30,878 nt of DNA, from IMG/VR virus record IMGVR_UViG_3300050033_000072, positions 1-30,878 of that record. One strand, 5' to 3'. The notes under the pieces were generated by a model, which did no database searches, was not told where the DNA came from, and saw only the letters and a list, made by a program, of their open reading frames with translations. The position numbers and the translations under genes were made by a program. Below, piece by piece: positions 14,985 through 27,908 of this stretch; positions within the stretch are counted from its first letter, which is position 1, and each line of letters starts with the position of its first letter. This DNA comes from a virus.

Positions 14985-16544
14985 ATGCCCGTAATGCCGA
15001 TCCAGTATAGCCAAGAACAGCCGCCAGCCAAGGGCCCGAACGTCAGTGCTCATCTGGACACCGACACTGGCTCTGGCATGGTGTGGAAACAAGTCGCCAA
15101 CGCCGGCAACGAGATGGCCGACATGGGGATGAAGATTGCCGCGAAGTTGCAACAGGCAAGCGACCAGACCGAATACAACACGATCATGCGCCAGTACGCC
15201 GAACAGGAACAGGCGGCGCATACGCAGATTGCTACGTCGCTAGACCCGGTGGCGAATCAGGCCGTGTTGGATAAGTTCAAGACCGACTGGCAGGCACCCA
15301 AAGCGTCAAATCCCCGCGTTCAGCAGATGGTGAATGGCGATCTGGCAATGCGATTGCCAAACTCTTACGCGATGTTGAACCTTGCAAATCTAAAGACGCA
15401 GCGGGATCAGATAGACGTGCAAGACCAAGTGAACGAGAACCACTTCTACGCTTCGGGCGATCAGAAGTCTTTTGAGGCATTGCAAGATTCCAGACAAACA
15501 AATGGACTACAGACTAAACTTGAAACTGCCGTGAAGAAGGAAGCCTTCAGTAATATGTCCGCGATGACGAAGGCGGGTATCGCCCTTGCTAACAATAAGC
15601 CGTTGGATGCTGAAGCGATGTTGCAAGCGAGTGACCCTAAAACCATGACGCCAGAACTAGTGGGCCACTACAATGCCCTGGAGCGAACTATCCGCACGGC
15701 CAAGGAAGAACAATCCCAGCAGACGCAATCGCAACTCGTGGCCGATTCCTACAAGGCGTCTAATTTGCCGGCGAACCAGCAAATACAGGCGTTTGACGCT
15801 ATCCACAAGCAAGCATTGTCTGCCCCAATGACGGCGGCAGAACGGCGGGAAATGCTCAATTGGATCGACAAGATGCAGAACGGCAAGGCTGATGCGCCGG
15901 ACGATGCGATGGTGTCTGACGGCTGGAGGAGCGTCTACGCCCTGAACGCCGATTCCCCGAAGTCGCAATGGGATACCGCACGATCGAGCATCGCCGCCAA
16001 TCTGACCAAGACTGGCAGTAAGGGCGTGGAGCAACTCAAGATACTGGACGAGCGTAAGGCCGCGAAAGAGGAATCAAATCTCAAAGGCGCTATCAATGGT
16101 GTTGGCGGGGATAGCGATGGTGAATTCGTCCATGAGATGCACGTGAAGTACGGCAACCAGCATCTCGACTCTGCCGACGTTTTCCCAAAGGTTGCTTCTG
16201 ACTGGGCAACGTATCAGGCGGCACATCCGCAGTCTGCAAATAAGCCGATGCTGACTCCAAAAGAAACCGAGAAGTTGCAAACAGATATTCGAATCTTGCA
16301 GATTGAATACAAGATCGCTCATGAAGACCTTGAGGAAGACATGAGTCAAAAAGCACAGGATAAGGCCGCGTTAGCTCGCGTAAAACTATACGCCAAACAG
16401 CAAGAACTGGACGACTTGACAAAACCACAGCCCGCGCCGACCAACCAGTTAGTGAATCCGCAAGATAAAGAAGGCGACACCGCCACAAATAAAACTACCG
16501 GCGAAAAGATGATGTTCCATGACGGTAAGTGGGTGCAACAATGA
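14985..16544 (+). CDS. internal virion protein (T7 gp15-like)
   Basis: 519 residues, shorter than T7 gp15 (747), mostly helical and rich in A, Q, K and D. The N-terminal GSGMVWKQVANAGNEMADMG followed by KIAAKLQQASDQTEYNTIMR is typical of the start of this family. In T7, gp15 joins gp16 to form the periplasmic conduit and DNA-translocating machine. Starts after AGGTG; its stop overlaps the next start (ATGA). Assignment rests on composition, size and conserved gene order more than on single residues. Confidence 0.75.
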   Translation: MPVMPIQYSQEQPPAKGPNVSAHLDTDTGSGMVWKQVANAGNEMADMGMKIAAKLQQASDQTEYNTIMRQYAEQEQAAHTQIATSLDPVANQAVLDKFKTDWQAPKASNPRVQQMVNGDLAMRLPNSYAMLNLANLKTQRDQIDVQDQVNENHFYASGDQKSFEALQDSRQTNGLQTKLETAVKKEAFSNMSAMTKAGIALANNKPLDAEAMLQASDPKTMTPELVGHYNALERTIRTAKEEQSQQTQSQLVADSYKASNLPANQQIQAFDAIHKQALSAPMTAAERREMLNWIDKMQNGKADAPDDAMVSDGWRSVYALNADSPKSQWDTARSSIAANLTKTGSKGVEQLKILDERKAAKEESNLKGAINGVGGDSDGEFVHEMHVKYGNQHLDSADVFPKVASDWATYQAAHPQSANKPMLTPKETEKLQTDIRILQIEYKIAHEDLEEDMSQKAQDKAALARVKLYAKQQELDDLTKPQPAPTNQLVNPQDKEGDTATNKTTGEKMMFHDGKWVQQ

Positions 16545-19500
16545 CAGCAGTTAGCGCACTTCCAGAAGGCTTCACGCGGGATTCTGAATCAGGCCAATTG
16601 CCTGAAGGATTCGCAAGGGATAGTGCCCCACAACCGGCCAACTCGGCTGCGTCGCCCAGCGTTGCCCTTCCTCAAATGTCGATGGTTGGAATGGCACAAC
16701 GGCGGCAGGACGCGGGCAAGGCCGCTTCTGAAGCTCTTAATTGGGCAGCGAAAACCGGCCTACCTATCCGGGATGGCATGGCCCGCGAACAGCGCAAGAT
16801 CGAACAGGCCAGAGAAAACGAACGCTTGCTTGCCGCCGACAAGCAGATTGCCGACGCACACAAGGCACAGCAGCAGCCGACCGTTTCGGCGTTGCCCGCA
16901 AGTATGACAACCGGGGCAGGTGTGGCCGGTATGTATGCCAAGGGCAACGGGATTGATGTTGTAGAACCCGCCAAAGAAAAAGGCGGCATTATTCAGCCTA
17001 CGTTGTCATGCCTGGAGTCAATGGGTACTACATTGGGTTCTGGTATCGCCAGTCTGGGAATAGGTATTGGATACGCAGGCGAACATTACCTAGCCCGTCC
17101 GATTCGAGACACCATTACGGATATTTGGAAAAATGTCGCTGGGCCGGAAATACAGATGAAGCCCGAAGCGCTCGCGAAGTGGCGAAGTGAACAAGGGCAA
17201 GATAAAGGCGTGCTAGAAAGCGATGTTGCTGAATCCGAGGCGTCAATGGGCGTTAAGGCTGGCCAACAGGCACTTGCCGCGAATCCGCAATCCATACCTG
17301 TCGAGATTGCCAACAAGCTGCTCGGTATTGCTCCGTGGATGGCCGAAGCCGCTATCCCCGTCATTGGCCTGCCGCTGGTGGCTGCAACAGCAGCGGGCAG
17401 CACAGCACAGGAAACTAAGGAACGCGGACGGGCGGCGGGCTGGTCAGACCAGCAAGCAGAGAATGCTTCGCTTGCCGCCGGCATCGCCGGTGCGGCGCTC
17501 ATGGTTATCCCGATGGGGAGTACGTTGCGATTGGCGCAAGGCGCTGAAGTCCGGCTTGGTGAATATATAGGTGAGGGCATCTTTCGGCAGATTTCGGCTG
17601 GTGTGCAACGCGCCCCAGCGGCGATTACAAAGAACGCATTGACTTTTGCGCTGGCCAACGGTGTGCAAGAGGGCATTGTGGAAGTGGCCTCTGGCGAACC
17701 CATCGACCTGGCAAGCATTTCGTCTTCGGCTATTTCAGGTGCGGAACAGGGCGGCTTACTTGGTGCCGCTGGCCACGCTCTTGGCACCATCGCCGACATA
17801 ACAAGGTTCCGTAAGGAAGTGAATGCGCCGAAGCCCGAAGTTCCCAAAGCAGAACCCGCCCCACCTGTTTCCAAAACGGAGACACCTGCCAAACCCGATA
17901 CGCCGGACGTCGTGATTGCCGCAACTGGTAACAAAACGAAACCGGTTGAAGGCGAAGCGAAGCCGAGTCTTACGTCTATCAAGAACCGCGTAGTCGACGA
18001 GGAACGCGCCCAGCGCGGCCTGCCGCCGATGGAAACGCTCTTGCGTCAAAAATGGGAAGATGCGAACGACAAGGCCGCTTCCGAGATGGACGCCAATCCG
18101 GCAAGGCTAAGCGGACTTATCCAGGAGCTTATCGACAAGCCAAGGCCGACCAGCGATGTTGAAGGAGCGATGCTTGACCGCGCACGGGTTGACCTAAACC
18201 ACACTCGAAGCAAGCTTTTGGAATCAGGCATTGCCGCACATGAAGCTGGCGACACTGGCGCCCTGGTACAAAACCGAATTCAACTATCAATAGTAAATGC
18301 AGACCTTGAAGCGGTCGATCAGGCGGGCAAGAATGCGGGGTCGGAACTTGGCCGAGGACTTGCTTTCCGCCGGGCAATGATGGCCGAGGACTACTCGCTT
18401 GTCTCCGTGGAACAACAGTGGCGAGCAGCGAACAGGTTTGAGCCGTTGCCCGAAGCGAAAATCGCCGAAATCAAGAGGCTCACAGATGAATTGACCACGC
18501 TTCAGGCGAAGTATGACGAGCATGTACGCCAGACCGAAGCCAATCAGCGAGCCGCCGCGATGCTTACGATCAAGGCTAGAACGCAAACGCCGCGAGCAGC
18601 AAACCCATCTGAACCGGCGTTTGGCGGGCGAAATCGAATCTTTACTCGCGAGCGAGCCGATGCTGCTAAGGCGGTGTTGGCGGAAAAGTTATCACAGTTG
18701 AATCTTGGCCTCGATCCAACATTACTGAAACCGCTCACAGAAGTTGGCGGGTATTATCTCGAAGCCGGCCTGCGTGAATTTGGAGCGTGGTCTAAGGCTG
18801 TCATGGAATCGCTTGGCGAACACGGCAAGAAGATCGAGCAATTCCTGCCAAGGATATTCGAGGAGGCCAGCAAAACTGAAACGGACACAAAACTGGCCGC
18901 AATAGGGGCCAAGATGGACAAGGCTAGTGCCGCTGGTAGGGTGCTGTTGGAACAGACAGGAAACTTACGCGAACTGGAACGCATGTTCGCCGAACAGGGC
19001 ATTACCGAACCTGGCCCGATGATAGATGCAGTCCACGATTTCCTTAAGGGCATTGAACCAGAGATAACCAAGCGCGATGTCTCTGACGCGCTTTCGGGTT
19101 ACGGCAAGTTCCGGCAGTTGAGCAAGGACGAGATTTCGGCCAGGATCCGGGATATCAATGGCCGGTTGCAGCAGATGGCGAAGCTTCAGGACATGGCCGA
19201 AGGAACCGCACCCGCCAAAACTGGGTTTGAACGGCGAACGCCAACCGACGCGGAACGCGAACTCATCAAGATGGTGAATGACGCCAAACGACAAGGCGGA
19301 TACAATACCCCCGATCCGGCTACGCAATTGAAATCGGCGCTCCAATCCCTCAAGACGCGGTGGACAAACCAACTTACCGACTTGACCAAGAAGCTTGACG
19401 AAGGTGATTTCTCTCGCAAGCCGCCCAAGTCGCCAGTTGAACTGGATAAAGAAGCCCAATCCCTAAAGGTAGCTGTCGAAGATGCTAAATCCAAAATTAA

Positions 19501-20863
19501 ACGTGGTGAACTGGAAATAGCGGCCAAGAACCGCACCAAGGCGGAAAAGACGCTCGATACTATCGTCAAGTGGCGGCGAGGTTTCGTTCTGTCAAGTCCT
19601 ATCGTTTTGGCCAAATTGACCTCGGCGGCTATAGAGCGCATGGTGTTTACGCCAATGGAACAGGTTGTTGGCGCTGGCCTGCGCAAATTGCCGGGCGTTC
19701 GCGATATTGCCGCTCGCGCTCCAAGTGAAGGCGGCGCTAGTATCCGAGTTGAGGCGAACGCAATAGCCGAGGGATTTTCCAAGGCCATGACAGATATCAG
19801 CAGTATGCTCAAGCATGGCGAAATGGATATCGGCAAACTCTATGGCAAGGAGCATTTTGACGTTGCGCCAAGCTTCATGGACTATATTGGCCGGTTGCAC
19901 GGTGCCTTAAAGACCGTGCCTAAACGCGCCGCATTTACTCGTTCGATGGCCTATCGAACAGAGGCGGCAATCCGCATGGGTCTTGATCCAACCGACCCAA
20001 TGGTTCAAGTTCGGCTATCCATTGAAGCCTACAAGGACGCCAACAGGTCAATCTTCCTTCAGGACAACTGGCTGACACAGCGATGGAAAAAGTTTACGTT
20101 GCCGACTATTGACAAGGCAACCGGCAAGGAGAAACTTGGCAGTAAGGTGTTCACAACTGCCGCGCGAGTCGCGTTGCCTATTGTCAGTATTCCAACCAAT
20201 ATCGTTGCCGAAACACTAACGTACACGTTTGGCACATTCACCGGCTCCGCGCGACTGGCCGCGGCCTTCATAAAGGGCATTGACACACTGAAGCCCGAAG
20301 AGGCCGATCTTATCATGCGACAACTCAAGAAGGGTTCGCTTGGCCTTGCGGCAATGGCGATAGGGTATTTCAATTCAGAGAACATTGGAGGCTATTATCA
20401 GCCTGGCGAGAAGCGGAAAGAAGGCGATGTCGCCGCCGACGAGGCCCGCGTGTTTGGCGTAACGATCCCGCGATATCTCATGCACCATCCTTTATTGATG
20501 ACGATGCAGATTGGTGCTACCGTTAAGCGGATAATGAATTCTAAATTGCGCAAGAGCGACGCGGAAAATCGGAGCGTTGTTGACGCTGGCGCTTCGGCGT
20601 TGTTAGGTTTGATTCAAGAAGTTCCGCTTGCCAAGGAAGGCGTTGATCTTGCCAAGCTTTTTGGCCCCGCCGCACAACGGGATCAGGTAGCACAAGACAC
20701 TATCAGATCGTTGTTGATTCCGGCAGCGTCGCAATGGACTGCCGGCAAACTCGACACGGACGCTCAAGGTAAGCCCATCAAGCGAAAGGCTACAACACTC
20801 AAACAAGCACTAGAAGAAGGCATACCCGGCCTTCGGTCGAATGTGCCAAGAAAGAAGCCATAA
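16541..20863 (+). CDS. large internal virion protein (T7 gp16-like)
   Basis: 1440 residues from the ATG at 16541, which overlaps the upstream stop; a GTG at 16529 would add four residues. Two tandem LPEGFxRDS motifs open the protein. Hydrophobic segments lie at about 161-180, 262-284 and 310-327, and a further set near 1180-1240 (RVALPIVSIPTNIVAETL) and 1260-1275. Long charged helices fill the middle. The C-terminal AYKDANRSIFLQDNW and following hydrophobic block resemble the end domains of large polyvalent phage proteins. T7 gp16 carries an N-terminal transglycosylase; I see no such active-site motif here. Expected role: ejection of core proteins and DNA across the cell envelope. Confidence 0.8.
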   Translation: MTAVSALPEGFTRDSESGQLPEGFARDSAPQPANSAASPSVALPQMSMVGMAQRRQDAGKAASEALNWAAKTGLPIRDGMAREQRKIEQARENERLLAADKQIADAHKAQQQPTVSALPASMTTGAGVAGMYAKGNGIDVVEPAKEKGGIIQPTLSCLESMGTTLGSGIASLGIGIGYAGEHYLARPIRDTITDIWKNVAGPEIQMKPEALAKWRSEQGQDKGVLESDVAESEASMGVKAGQQALAANPQSIPVEIANKLLGIAPWMAEAAIPVIGLPLVAATAAGSTAQETKERGRAAGWSDQQAENASLAAGIAGAALMVIPMGSTLRLAQGAEVRLGEYIGEGIFRQISAGVQRAPAAITKNALTFALANGVQEGIVEVASGEPIDLASISSSAISGAEQGGLLGAAGHALGTIADITRFRKEVNAPKPEVPKAEPAPPVSKTETPAKPDTPDVVIAATGNKTKPVEGEAKPSLTSIKNRVVDEERAQRGLPPMETLLRQKWEDANDKAASEMDANPARLSGLIQELIDKPRPTSDVEGAMLDRARVDLNHTRSKLLESGIAAHEAGDTGALVQNRIQLSIVNADLEAVDQAGKNAGSELGRGLAFRRAMMAEDYSLVSVEQQWRAANRFEPLPEAKIAEIKRLTDELTTLQAKYDEHVRQTEANQRAAAMLTIKARTQTPRAANPSEPAFGGRNRIFTRERADAAKAVLAEKLSQLNLGLDPTLLKPLTEVGGYYLEAGLREFGAWSKAVMESLGEHGKKIEQFLPRIFEEASKTETDTKLAAIGAKMDKASAAGRVLLEQTGNLRELERMFAEQGITEPGPMIDAVHDFLKGIEPEITKRDVSDALSGYGKFRQLSKDEISARIRDINGRLQQMAKLQDMAEGTAPAKTGFERRTPTDAERELIKMVNDAKRQGGYNTPDPATQLKSALQSLKTRWTNQLTDLTKKLDEGDFSRKPPKSPVELDKEAQSLKVAVEDAKSKIKRGELEIAAKNRTKAEKTLDTIVKWRRGFVLSSPIVLAKLTSAAIERMVFTPMEQVVGAGLRKLPGVRDIAARAPSEGGASIRVEANAIAEGFSKAMTDISSMLKHGEMDIGKLYGKEHFDVAPSFMDYIGRLHGALKTVPKRAAFTRSMAYRTEAAIRMGLDPTDPMVQVRLSIEAYKDANRSIFLQDNWLTQRWKKFTLPTIDKATGKEKLGSKVFTTAARVALPIVSIPTNIVAETLTYTFGTFTGSARLAAAFIKGIDTLKPEEADLIMRQLKKGSLGLAAMAIGYFNSENIGGYYQPGEKRKEGDVAADEARVFGVTIPRYLMHHPLLMTMQIGATVKRIMNSKLRKSDAENRSVVDAGASALLGLIQEVPLAKEGVDLAKLFGPAAQRDQVAQDTIRSLLIPAASQWTAGKLDTDAQGKPIKRKATTLKQALEEGIPGLRSNVPRKKP

Positions 20864-23013: not shown

Positions 23014-23244
23014 ATGCAAAACGCATTCGACTGGCTGAAACTGAACGGCCCCCGAATCTACGGGGCGATGATCGCAGCAGACTTTGCCGCCCGCTCCCAG
23101 GGCTGGCATGAGCCTGTCTGGGTTGCAGCTACGCTGGCTGGACTGGGCGTCCTGCTGGCGGGTACTGCGGCAACCGTCGCCGGCGTGAAGTACGGCGTGC
23201 GCCTACTGTCGCCCCCGAAACTGGCCCGCAAGCGAACCAAATAG
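23014..23244 (+). CDS. small membrane protein, holin candidate
   Basis: 76 residues. One clear membrane segment at about 35-58 (VAATLAGLGVLLAGTAATVAG) follows an amphipathic N-terminal region, and the C-terminus is strongly basic (LARKRTK). Size, basic tail and position at the end of a cassette with lipoproteins and a papain-like enzyme suit a holin, which makes the timed hole in the inner membrane. Single-segment holins exist, but small membrane proteins of other function look the same. Starts after the duplicated GAAAGGACGATC leader and is followed by a strong terminator. Confidence 0.55.
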   Translation: MQNAFDWLKLNGPRIYGAMIAADFAARSQGWHEPVWVAATLAGLGVLLAGTAATVAGVKYGVRLLSPPKLARKRTK

Positions 23245-23252
23245 TATTCCCC

Positions 23253-23323
23253 GCGCCGTGCCCCCGGCGCTTACCCGCCCCTGCATCGGGTTCGTCCCCT
23301 TTCCCGGTGCAGGGGTAAATTTT
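23253..23323 (+). terminator. tandem hairpins with rho-independent terminator
   Basis: First a perfect GCGCCG/CGGCGC hairpin with a 6-base loop (23253-23270). Then a 13-bp stem, CCCCTGCATCGGG (23278-23290) with CCCGGTGCAGGGG (23303-23315), broken only by one T-G pair, followed by TAAATTTT. This closes the late operon. Confidence 0.85.
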
Positions 23324-23333
23324 CGGAATTTCC

Positions 23334-23362
23334 TTGACGAATTGTCGGGGGCGTGATTAAAT
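23334..23362 (+). promoter_or_regulatory. sigma70-type promoter of the non-coding region
   Basis: TTGACG (23334-23339), a 17-base spacer and TTAAAT (23357-23362), preceded by TG one base before the -10 (extended -10). Five of six bases match consensus in each box. It sits just after the late terminator, so it begins a separate transcript at about 23369. Confidence 0.75.
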
Positions 23363-23369
23363 AGCTTCA

Positions 23370-23903
23370 GGTGCGGCTAGTTACCGCGCCAGAAGTGTTT
23401 AGGAACTATGACGACAATTAAATACAATCTTGACAGCTTCAACCGGCCCGTCATGGCCGCTAGCGCTTCTGATCAAACTAGACTACAGCCAGGGAAACCT
23501 GGCTGTTTGTCTATTCAGGCTGAACGGCACGTCGGTTCAACTCCGGCGACAGCCTATCCAAGTTGCAAAGCCCATAGGAGCGTAACAACCCGTGGTGGGA
23601 TTGGTGGAGCGGCCTTCACGGACGCCAGTTTAGCACACAGAGTCTCCTTGGGAACGCCCACAATGACTACCTTACCGCCGTGTGCGGTCCATCGTCAAAG
23701 TGGTGTCCTTCCGACCGTGGCTCCTTTACGCTGCATATCTTGTAGGCAAACTCCAACTTTTCGTGTTTTTGCTTGCACAAGCTTCTTGCGCTCGGACTCG
23801 TCATCCTGCACCCAGTTGACAAGAGCCTAGAGACAACGTAGCCGGCATGATGCAGACAATGGTGAACGGGATGGTGGACAGAGAAGGGTCTTGTTGTTTC
23901 TTA
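23370..23903 (+). ncRNA. candidate large structured non-coding RNA
   Basis: About 530 bases with a strong promoter in front and no convincing protein. Structure is visible by eye. A 5' hairpin GGTGCGG/CCGCGCC lies at 23370-23387. A long hairpin at 23479-23513 has an 8-bp stem closed by a GAAA tetraloop plus a 5-bp outer helix. An element at 23517-23556 has a T-arm with loop TTCAACT and 5-bp stem, closed by AGGCTG/CAGCCT. Further pieces are a small hairpin ACCGC/GCGGT near 23673, a long-range pairing AGCGTAA (23579) with TTACGCT (23726), and a closing helix ACAAGAGCC (23819) with GGGTCTTGT (23886) followed by TTGTTTCTT, which may be the terminator. Size and phage context resemble GOLLD/ROOL-class RNAs; identity is not established. 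Confidence 0.55.
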
Positions 23904-23981
23904 AGGTTGAGGTTCCCTGAAGCTTAGCCACTTCTATTCTTACTCCAGCAGCCCGGCGGCGCGGATCAGCGGGCCGGTCGA

Positions 23982-24254
23982 TCATTCGCCTTTCGCCGCC
24001 GCGATGGCGGCGTCAGTCAATTCAAGGGCGGGGGATAATCCCCTATTGCCATTGAGTGCCGCCGTGCGCATGGCCTCCAGTGCCGCCAGCATCGCGTCGA
24101 AGTTGTTCCAGCAGTGGGCCAAGCCCTTCGCGTCGGCGGGCCTGCCGAACATACTATCGTTATCGCGGTCAATGATCGGCGGATTGAATGCCACGGTCGC
24201 CCAGCCCAGGCGATTGGGTTTGCCTACGATTACTTCGATTGGTGTGTGTTCCAT
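23982..24254 (-). CDS. small phage protein of unknown function
   Basis: 90 residues on the minus strand from the ATG at 24254, with GAAAGGAAA as ribosome-binding site; an upstream start at 24305 lacks one. The C-terminal half (FDAMLAALEAMRTAALNG then PALELTDAAIAAAKGE) has the pattern of short early-region phage proteins seen in many genomes without known function. It is one of only two minus-strand genes in the window, has its own promoter, and points toward the structured RNA region. After its TGA stop the same frame continues for 12 sense codons to a TAA, reading STGPLIRAAGLLE. Confidence 0.6.
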   Translation of the reverse strand: MEHTPIEVIVGKPNRLGWATVAFNPPIIDRDNDSMFGRPADAKGLAHCWNNFDAMLAALEAMRTAALNGNRGLSPALELTDAAIAAAKGE

Positions 24255-24322: not shown

Positions 24323-24344
24323 TACCGAAATTAAAGAATTACGC

Positions 24345-24372
24345 TTGACGGGCCGATAAGATGTGGTAAGGT
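24345..24372 (+). promoter_or_regulatory. promoter of the ribbon-helix-helix-like gene
   Basis: TTGACG (24345-24350), a 16-base spacer and TAAGGT (24367-24372), with TG one base upstream of the -10 as in the promoter at 23334. The predicted transcription start falls almost on the ATG at 24380, so the message may be leaderless or nearly so. Confidence 0.45.
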
Positions 24373-24567: not shown

Positions 24568-24744
24568 ATGAGCCAATACTGCGAAAACTGCAAGAGGTTA
24601 GCTGATGATCTTGCCGCCGCGAACGCCATGATTGTGGAACTGACTACAGCGTATGAGGATTGGCTAAGATCGGACGGCATTTTTCCTAAGGCACTATGTG
24701 ATCTTGTTCGCAAGATTCGCACCGAACCCCACCAGCCGGGCTGA
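24568..24744 (+). CDS. short helical protein with CxxC
   Basis: 58 residues from the ATG at 24568; a GTG at 24562 overlapping the preceding stop is the alternative start. It has C5xxC8 near the N-terminus (YCENCKRLADDLAAANA) followed by a heptad-like helix, a pattern seen in many small early phage proteins. No second cysteine pair is present, so zinc binding would need a dimer. The 3' end runs into a hairpin that may be part of the terminator. Function unknown. Confidence 0.5.
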   Translation: MSQYCENCKRLADDLAAANAMIVELTTAYEDWLRSDGIFPKALCDLVRKIRTEPHQPG

Positions 24745-24788
24745 AGTCCGGCTGATAACCGCCGCCCGGTGCCTCCACGCCGGGCGGC
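24734..24788 (+). terminator. tandem hairpins, terminator candidate
   Basis: AGCCGG/CCGGCT (24734-24753) overlaps the end of the preceding gene. A perfect 9-bp stem GCCGCCCGG/CCGGGCGGC with a 10-base loop (24761-24788) follows. Only ATTT comes after, so the terminator is weak or acts in another way. Confidence 0.5.
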
Positions 24789-24846
24789 ACATTTGAACTA
24801 AAGGAACAGGGACGTAGGAACCTCGTTTAGCAGGCGCACGGACGCA

Positions 24847-24892
24847 GGGCCGGGTTGGCCGGATATGTTCGGACGTAAGCCCAACCCGGCCC
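24847..24892 (+). promoter_or_regulatory. 12-bp GC-rich stem-loop in the leader of the next gene
   Basis: GGGCCGGGTTGG (24847-24858) pairs perfectly with CCAACCCGGCCC (24881-24892). The 22-base loop contains an inner CCG/CGG pair. It lies 19 bases before the ATG at 24912, just ahead of the AAAGGGA site. No T-tract follows, so a leader-regulatory structure is more likely than a terminator. The rest of the 120-base gap shows nothing clear. Confidence 0.5.
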
Positions 24893-24911
24893 GGCACAGA
24901 AAGGGAATGAA

Positions 24912-26733: not shown

Positions 26734-26828
26734 GGGATGGCGGCGATGGCGGGCAAGTTGTCACCAGCCGCACATGGAAACGCTTGAGGAAATGCGAGCG
26801 CTGCAAGGTTCGACTCCTTGCCATCCCG
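26734..26828 (+). tRNA. tRNA-like element A
   Basis: GGGATGG (26734-26740) and CCATCCC (26821-26827) form a perfect 7-bp acceptor-like stem. Directly before the 3' strand is a canonical T-arm, CAAGG-TTCGACT-CCTTG (26804-26820). Two other arms fit inside: GCGG/CCGC with a 15-base loop, and CGCTTG/CGAGCG with an 8-base loop. A normal 7-base anticodon loop with U33 could not be fitted, so it may be a diverged tRNA, a tRNA pseudogene or a tRNA mimic. Confidence 0.45.
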
Positions 26829-26830
26829 AT

Positions 26831-26902: not shown

Positions 26903-26989
26903 GCGGCGGTGGCGTGAAGCCTGCAAAACTTCACGTCGCAAATGGTTAAGGTGCTAGCGCCAAGTAGGGTTCAAATCCCTTCCGCCGCA
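26903..26989 (+). tRNA. tRNA-like element C with GCA-anticodon-like loop
   Basis: GCGGCGG (26903-26909) pairs perfectly with CCGCCGC (26982-26988), followed by A. A T-arm AGGG-TTCAAAT-CCCT lies just before the 3' strand. The first internal arm is CGTGAAG/CTTCACG; its loop contains CTGCAAA, the usual sequence of a cysteine (GCA) anticodon loop. Yet it precedes, rather than follows, a D-loop-like AAATGGTTAAGG, and a GGTG/CGCC variable-arm-like hairpin comes next. The parts are those of a tRNA but the order is wrong for one. Confidence 0.45.
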
Positions 26990-26990
26990 A

Positions 26991-27089
26991 TAGTGACGTG
27001 AACGCTGCTGGCGACCGGGCCGGGAGCGTGTTCGAGGGCCGGAATATGCAACCCTCGGACTGGTGCGGAATCCGCCCACGTCACTACCA
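26991..27089 (+). ncRNA. tRNA-like element D with encoded CCA
   Basis: TAGTGACGTG (26991-27000) pairs perfectly with CACGTCACTA (27077-27086), and CCA follows at 27087-27089. Three arms lie inside in cloverleaf order: ACGCT/AGCGT, a TCGAGGG/CCCTCGG arm with a 13-base loop, and GGTG/CGCC with loop CGGAATC. It begins one base after element C. The 10-bp acceptor and large middle loop are not those of an elongator tRNA. Confidence 0.4.
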
Positions 27090-27105
27090 ATGTAGCACCG
27101 GCGTT

Positions 27106-27176
27106 GCCGCTGGCAGCCGTGTGGTGAAATGGGAGTAGCCTACCACACGTGATTGGCCCTGCCAGCGGCGCGCCGC
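27106..27176 (+). promoter_or_regulatory. long nested hairpin and palindrome before the next gene
   Basis: GCCGCTGGCAG (27106-27116) pairs perfectly with CTGCCAGCGGC (27159-27169), and inside it CGTGTGGT pairs with ACCACACG. The 3' arm runs into a 12-bp perfect palindrome GCGGCGCGCCGC (27165-27176). It ends 18 bases before the ATG at 27195, so it could control that gene or end the tRNA-like transcript. Confidence 0.45.
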
Positions 27177-27194
27177 TAAATTGAAAGGGACACA

Positions 27195-27908
27195 ATGAAA
27201 CGCGACGTCTACCGATGGGATTCTGAATCCCATTATACCGAATTAAGGACGGGCATTAGTGGCGACAATGGCGTGCTTAGTGTGTTGTCAGACAACGAGA
27301 TCACCGCCGACGAAGCGGCTCGGCTGACGAAGCCCGCCGAAGAGTGGCCACAGTATTATGTGCCCGTATTGTGGCTTGGGTACGAGCGATCATTGATGGA
27401 GTTTATGGATGCTACTGCTCCAGTTATTGTTTACAACCACACGCCTAGCGAGACTTATAATCTTTCGTTGCACCAAGTCCGCCTGGACCACACATTCCAG
27501 CGTCTCACCCTCGCCGAAGGTCAGGCACTCAAAGCCCAGCTGATGCAGCCCCAGCTGCGATTCCGCGTCGGGCAGTATGTGACACATGTAGGGTATCCTT
27601 GGCAAATCAAATCACGACATGAGGGCGGGGCTCGGATATCGTGGAACCTCGCTCGTCCAGATGGTAAGACGGGGGTTCTGTTCGATGACGACGCCGACTG
27701 GCAACCCTACCCTGAGGGCGAGATACCGCCAGAGTTCAAGCCGAAGCCGAAGCCGAAGCCGAAGCCGAAGCCGAAGCCGAAGCCGGAAATCATCTGCGGG
27801 CGGTGTGGGTTGGAAGGTAAGGAAACCGAAACAGCGGGAATTGGCCGATGCCCGCAATGTGGCTCTCGCAACTGGGACTTCGCCGACACCCGAAAGGAAG
27901 CGGAATAA
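27195..27908 (+). CDS. protein with (Lys-Pro) linker and C-terminal zinc ribbon
   Basis: 237 residues. The first 180 residues form an unrecognised domain, including an EPxxW-like RFRVGQYVTHVGYPWQIKS barrel-like stretch that resembles small SH3-type modules. Then come eight Lys-Pro pairs (about 182-197), and a zinc ribbon with CGRCG and CPQCG about 20 residues apart. Lys-Pro runs are stiff, extended linkers and would hold the ribbon away from the body. GAAAGGGA precedes the start. Its stop shares a base with the next start (TAATG), linking it to the recombination nuclease. A nucleic-acid-related role is likely but not shown. Confidence 0.65.
   Translation: MKRDVYRWDSESHYTELRTGISGDNGVLSVLSDNEITADEAARLTKPAEEWPQYYVPVLWLGYERSLMEFMDATAPVIVYNHTPSETYNLSLHQVRLDHTFQRLTLAEGQALKAQLMQPQLRFRVGQYVTHVGYPWQIKSRHEGGARISWNLARPDGKTGVLFDDDADWQPYPEGEIPPEFKPKPKPKPKPKPKPKPEIICGRCGLEGKETETAGIGRCPQCGSRNWDFADTRKEAE
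27738..27785 (+). repeat. 8 tandem 6-bp repeats coding (Lys-Pro)8
   Basis: AAGCCG is repeated eight times without change. Identical codons throughout point to slippage, and unit number may vary without loss of frame. Confidence 0.95.

Follow-up and report, generated by a model that had tools for sequence, protein, structure and literature searches.

A promoter-proximal structured segment of an unclassified short-tailed phage as a possible lineage-specific small noncoding RNA

Small regulatory RNAs of phages and prophages include P4 CI RNA and HK022 put RNA, the latter of which acts in cis on the polymerase in antitermination. IsrK of Gifsy-1 is likewise a prophage small regulatory RNA (PMC4825925). 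GOLLD and ROOL are structured noncoding phage RNAs of no known function (PMC12286853). Here, we analyzed a phage intergenic stretch (23334-23905, + strand) that a first-pass annotation had proposed to be a large structured RNA of about 530 nt under its own promoter. Our tentative reading is that it may encode a small noncoding RNA, about 150-190 nt long and specific to this phage lineage. Such an RNA would share with GOLLD and ROOL that it is phage-borne, structured, and noncoding, but those RNAs measure 500-800+ nt, whereas approximately 190 nt are structured here, and neither model matches; unlike in the GOLLD/ROOL setting, no tRNA island was recognized by ARAGORN in this phage. It would resemble P4 CI RNA, put RNA, and IsrK in being short, structured, located between phage genes, and preceded by a promoter, although a sequence relation to these RNAs is not established. 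If real, it would be an orphan without a known family and with a role assigned by inference only, one more orphan structured RNA beside the many phage small RNAs that belong to no family.

The window, by which we mean the whole stretch of DNA analyzed, is a 30,878-base IMG/VR virus record and a linear contig. Its left two thirds hold the structural module of a short-tailed phage, including a terminase large subunit (phrog_675), a head-tail adaptor (phrog_332), a major head protein (phrog_3437), and tail proteins. The phage is unclassified, and the closest relatives of its portal in annotated phages are those of Pelagibacter podoviruses, with approximately 28% identity. The right third contains small genes together with an exonuclease VIII-like protein and a Holliday junction resolvase-like protein. 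Terminase alignment revealed about 30 IMG/VR contigs with terminases 42-55% identical, which have the structural module in common with the window and nothing in common with it to the right of about 16.5 kb. A 1444-aa protein (16529-20863, + strand), part of which resembles DarB-like antirestriction proteins (phrog_10089, E 1.5e-17), is perhaps carried in the virion.

Upstream of the stretch, a long hairpin CCCCTGCATCGGG/CCCGGTGCAGGGG followed by TAAATTTT (23278-23315, + strand), read directly from the sequence and recovered as a self-match, is probably the terminator of the late operon. It is followed by a promoter-like site (23334-23362, + strand) composed of TTGACG (23334-23339), a 17-nt spacer, and TTAAAT (23357-23362) with a TG extension (23354-23355). 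The site had been described as a near-consensus promoter with an extended -10 element; the arrangement TTGACG-17-TG-A-TTAAAT is present after the terminator hairpin, but the -10 box is poor, with 4/6 consensus matches and without the key A at position 2, and a stricter (standard) promoter scan listed no site, 23334-23362 included. Four sites of equal score were found in the window, compared to 1.5 +/- 1.0 in shuffles; both promoter-like and terminator-like sites are available to the proposed RNA, and neither kind clearly exceeds shuffles. The sequence TTTTCGGAATNTCCTTGAC upstream of the site is common to a related phage, G039, in which 19/20 bases upstream of and through the -35 element recur before a better -10 (GATAAT). 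The promoter-like site gains weight from its position, with a strong hairpin on one side and a noncoding stretch on the other, and from this match in G039. When the upstream motif was searched in all viral contigs, most matches were, by eye, coding-sequence coincidences, and the sole intergenic match in a related phage was that in G039. Downstream of the matching promoter of G039 (L167, 8985-9650) is a reading frame resembling an HNH endonuclease, with a 12-bp GGAGATAGCGAT/ATCGCTATCTCC helix in its leader.

Folding analysis located the structure in the 5' part of the stretch. The whole 559-nt fold was not unusually stable (z -1.36; 9/100 shuffles equally stable) because structure is confined to this part: 150-nt tiles gave z of -3 to -4 within 23360-23640 and a mean of +0.1 in 23640-23920. 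The segment from the inferred transcription start to the end of the GAAA-capped hairpin (23368-23514) had a z of -5.88, and that extending to the end of the T-loop hairpin (23368-23556) a z of -5.45, with 0/200 dinucleotide shuffles as stable in either case. The minus strand was less stable than the + strand over the same segments (z -3.44 and -2.92, respectively). No folding signal was observed in 23515-23905 (z +0.78) or 23557-23905 (z +0.96). Of the large RNA of about 530 nt, then, the first approximately 190 nt are supported as structured, noncoding, and promoter-proximal, but 23515-23905 lies at or above shuffle energy. The z values of -5.5 to -5.9 are somewhat flattering because the boundaries of both segments were taken from the promoter and from the fold themselves; when the window was covered on a fixed grid, the top value elsewhere, in coding stretches, was -5.3, and the nearest grid window here (23408-23554) reached only -3.5.

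The structured segment (23368-23556, + strand), delimited by z values and pair probabilities, is predicted to form four hairpins. H1, GGTGCGG-CTAGTTA-CCGCGCC (23370-23390), is located at the inferred 5' end and is abutted by H2, a long irregular hairpin (23391-23470); both were indicated by folding z and pair probabilities. H3 (23479-23513), a GAAA-capped ACAGCCAGG/CCTGGCTGT hairpin with a T-rich tail, was found by the terminator scan and pair probabilities, and H4 (23517-23555), a T-loop hairpin GTCGG-TTCAACT-CCGGC on AGGCTG/CAGCCT, by the T-arm scan and pair probabilities. In the context of approximately 190 nt, pair probabilities were 0.7-1.0 in all four hairpins, and the GAAA-capped hairpin of the first-pass annotation was confirmed with a predicted probability of about 1. 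That of H2 fell to 0.36 when the RNA was extended to 23905; a short RNA fits better, since H2 would form in only about one third of molecules if the RNA reached that far. H3 was listed as terminator-like, at a type of site no commoner than in shuffles, and its T tract is weak (TTTGTCTATT); it is a candidate intrinsic terminator. Two pairings that had been suggested for the large RNA, both located in the unstructured part, fared less well. The long-range 7-bp pairing AGCGTAA/TTACGCT does occur, but by our own estimate 700 nt would contain about 15 such 7-mer pairs by chance, and the domain it would close does not exceed shuffles in stability (z -0.7). The terminal helix with a T-rich run received no support from the fold of 23557-23905.

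The coding potential of the stretch agreed with the earlier statement that it contains no believable protein. ORF 23408-23830 had a codon log-odds of -0.186, the same as random antisense DNA (-0.17 +/- 0.11); most small genes of the same phage scored 0.03-0.17, and one uncertain 58-aa ORF scored -0.12. The frames tested gave no Pfam, PHROG, or tblastn match. The remainder of the interval (23557-23905, + strand) is unstructured and carries no + strand gene. It is followed by a convergent small gene (MEHTPIEVIVGKPNRLGW...AKGE; 23982-24254, - strand; codon score 0.128). On the minus strand, a frame running from 23985 to 23557 has only two internal stops, with an ATG start overlapping the stop codon of the minus-strand gene upstream of it, and is possibly a decayed gene; the codon score of its 23557-23826 portion, -0.003, lies between random DNA (-0.16 +/- 0.12) and real genes (0.13 +/- 0.07).

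These features bear on a plainer explanation, namely that nothing more than intergenic spacer separates the late-operon terminator from the convergent gene, its hairpins having arisen by chance and its minus strand possibly carrying a decayed gene. The lack of structure in the greater part of the interval, the single hairpin-rich windows of comparable z held by coding genes, and the intermediate codon score and overlapping ATG of the minus-strand frame are all consistent with it. However, four adjacent hairpins begin at the expected transcription start, with z about -5.5 to -5.9, and a search for protein homology of the minus-strand frame (23557-23985) found none. We regard the spacer explanation as rather unlikely. 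The small-RNA reading, which is somewhat better placed without being secure, draws on the predicted folding, the promoter context, and the absent coding signal.

Known RNA classes were examined across the window. Rfam searches of the flagged interval at E <= 10 yielded nothing relevant, the sole match being a chance one of a microRNA model on the upstream terminator hairpin, and a search of the whole window placed no known family in the flagged stretch. In single-model searches of the window, GOLLD (RF02032), ROOL (RF03087), tmRNA (RF00023), and the catalytic core model of the group I intron (RF00028) gave no match at E <= 10; the control genomes of the same search were also without ROOL. Membership in GOLLD or ROOL, suggested earlier for the stretch, was thus contradicted: neither model matches, the structure ends after approximately 190 nt, and a GOLLD/ROOL-type structure over about 500 nt or more is absent. 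A giant ornate RNA of this class, or a new class that large, would suit a phage-borne noncoding interval of comparable length, but with no Rfam match and no folding signal beyond 23556 it is extremely improbable. ARAGORN found 0 tRNA genes, and RF00005 had no match in 23200-24100; relaxed thresholds and the intron and mitochondrial modes of ARAGORN yielded merely low-quality overlapping candidates, and tmRNA candidates appeared solely at the relaxed 50% threshold, with tags of no recognized identity. A split or permuted tRNA was also rejected, as no 5' half with both a D arm and pairing to GACAGCC was found in the window.

The flagged RNA shares with tmRNA and tRNA a perfect T-loop hairpin (GTCGG-TTCAACT-CCGGC), but differs from them in having no model match, no recognized tag ORF, no D or anticodon arm, and an acceptor that is outcompeted. 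Alternatively to H4, GACAGCC could serve as an acceptor strand with GGCTGTT (23501-23507), giving a 55-nt mini tRNA-like element. The predicted probability of this pairing (23501-23507/23548-23554) was 0.00 because H3 occupies the same bases. We therefore took H4 as a T-loop hairpin and not as a tRNA-like element; of the earlier description of a T-loop arm on an acceptor-like helix, the arm stands and the tRNA-like acceptor does not. If the mini element did form, the stretch could encode one of a set of aberrant tRNA-like RNAs, possibly released by RNase P and RNase Z cleavage or serving as a tRNA decoy. The canonical T arm, the 7-bp acceptor pairing, and the presence of tRNA-like elements elsewhere in the lineage (see below) are in line with this possibility, but given the occupation of the acceptor bases by H3 and the failure of both RF00005 and ARAGORN to see the flagged element, we judge it distinctly improbable. 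A T arm followed by an acceptor-like strand could also be the 3' end of a host tRNA gene lying within a phage attachment site. A search of 84,980 bacterial and archaeal genomes for exact matches to the T-arm/acceptor sequence GGTTCAACTCCGGCGACAGCC (21 nt) found it in none, which makes an attachment site unlikely, and no integrase was recognized among the proteins examined; we assign this explanation hardly any weight.

Under the small-RNA reading, transcription would start near 23368, and most transcripts would end at H3 with its T-rich tail, near 23514. Read-through past H3 would give a form of approximately 190 nt ending in H4. The 5' hairpin and the T-loop hairpin might protect the RNA ends, and the RNA might act in trans, or on RNA polymerase or translation, as a phage regulatory RNA; both suggestions are of low certainty. 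The last approximately 350 nt up to the convergent gene would be spacer or what is left of a former gene. Alternatively, the segment could form the structured 5' leader of the + strand genes beyond and, like put RNA, promote antitermination for them by acting in cis on the polymerase. The structure begins at the inferred +1, and the terminator scan listed no strong terminator from 23515 to the + strand genes at 24371, as such a leader would have it; those genes, however, are preceded by a promoter-like site of their own near 24343, and the convergent gene intervenes before them. A cis-acting leader is accordingly very unlikely in our estimation.

Searches for homologues covered several collections, from which records very close to the window may have been absent. 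BLASTN against 32 + 36 related records yielded no homologue of the flagged stretch, nor did BLAST and a covariance model, built from one sequence and its predicted fold, in about 36 IMG/VR relatives found via the terminase. DNA patterns, including that of H1, had no match in 2.9 million viral contigs, and phage and plasmid DNA collections gave just chance matches of 23-47 nt. The flagged stretch showed no similarity to the second noncoding stretch of the window.

RNase P, RNase Z, and the CCA enzyme read a tRNA through its acceptor stem and T arm. Scanning for a T arm combined with a 7-bp acceptor revealed three places in the noncoding DNA of the 31-kb window versus one in 1.4 Mb from related phages. 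One element in the window (26903-26989, + strand) has the acceptor GCGGCGG/CCGCCGC and the T arm AGGG-TTCAAAT-CCCT; it scored 22 bits with RF00005, under the cut-off of 29. The loop of its long arm, CCTGCAAAA, resembles a Cys(GCA) anticodon loop and precedes the D-arm-like CAAATGGTTAAGG, as though the two arms had changed places. A second element (26734-26829, + strand), with the acceptor GGGATGG/CCATCCC and the T arm CAAGG-TTCGACT-CCTTG, carries two non-canonical hairpins between acceptor and T arm. Both have fully Watson-Crick acceptors and three-arm folds with intact acceptor and T arm and abnormal other arms, both were missed by ARAGORN and the Rfam cut-off, and they are far more tRNA-like than H4. 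The hit in a relative, G062 (L178, minus strand 6640-5800), lies in a noncoding array of approximately 800 nt whose units are tRNA-like but aberrant: GGTGGCAG/CTGCCACCACC ends recur, T loops contain small insertions (TACATCGAAT, TATCAAAT), and one mini unit has a length of approximately 58 nt; Rfam and ARAGORN detected none of its units. Together with this array, the two elements are stranger than the flagged RNA. Since several such elements escape ARAGORN and the Rfam cut-off, standard annotation would miss such RNAs in environmental phages. The lineage might even encode a new class of tRNA-mimicking RNAs, in arrays and singly, in which the acceptor stem and T arm are kept, the D and anticodon arms are replaced or rearranged, and the flagged RNA is a member, with a role as processing signals or decoys in infection; we consider this a long shot.

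Further structures were observed on the + strand of the window. The noncoding stretch that holds the two tRNA-like elements also contains further strong hairpins (26992-27195). Among them are a three-hairpin element closed by AGTGACGTG/CACGTCACT, with ACCA after it, and a long hairpin around 27105-27175; the 120-nt fold at 27081-27200 had a z of -4.2. A short intergenic stretch (24681-24900) contains very stable GC-rich hairpins (z -5.0 for 24681-24800), which are probably terminators or structured RNA.
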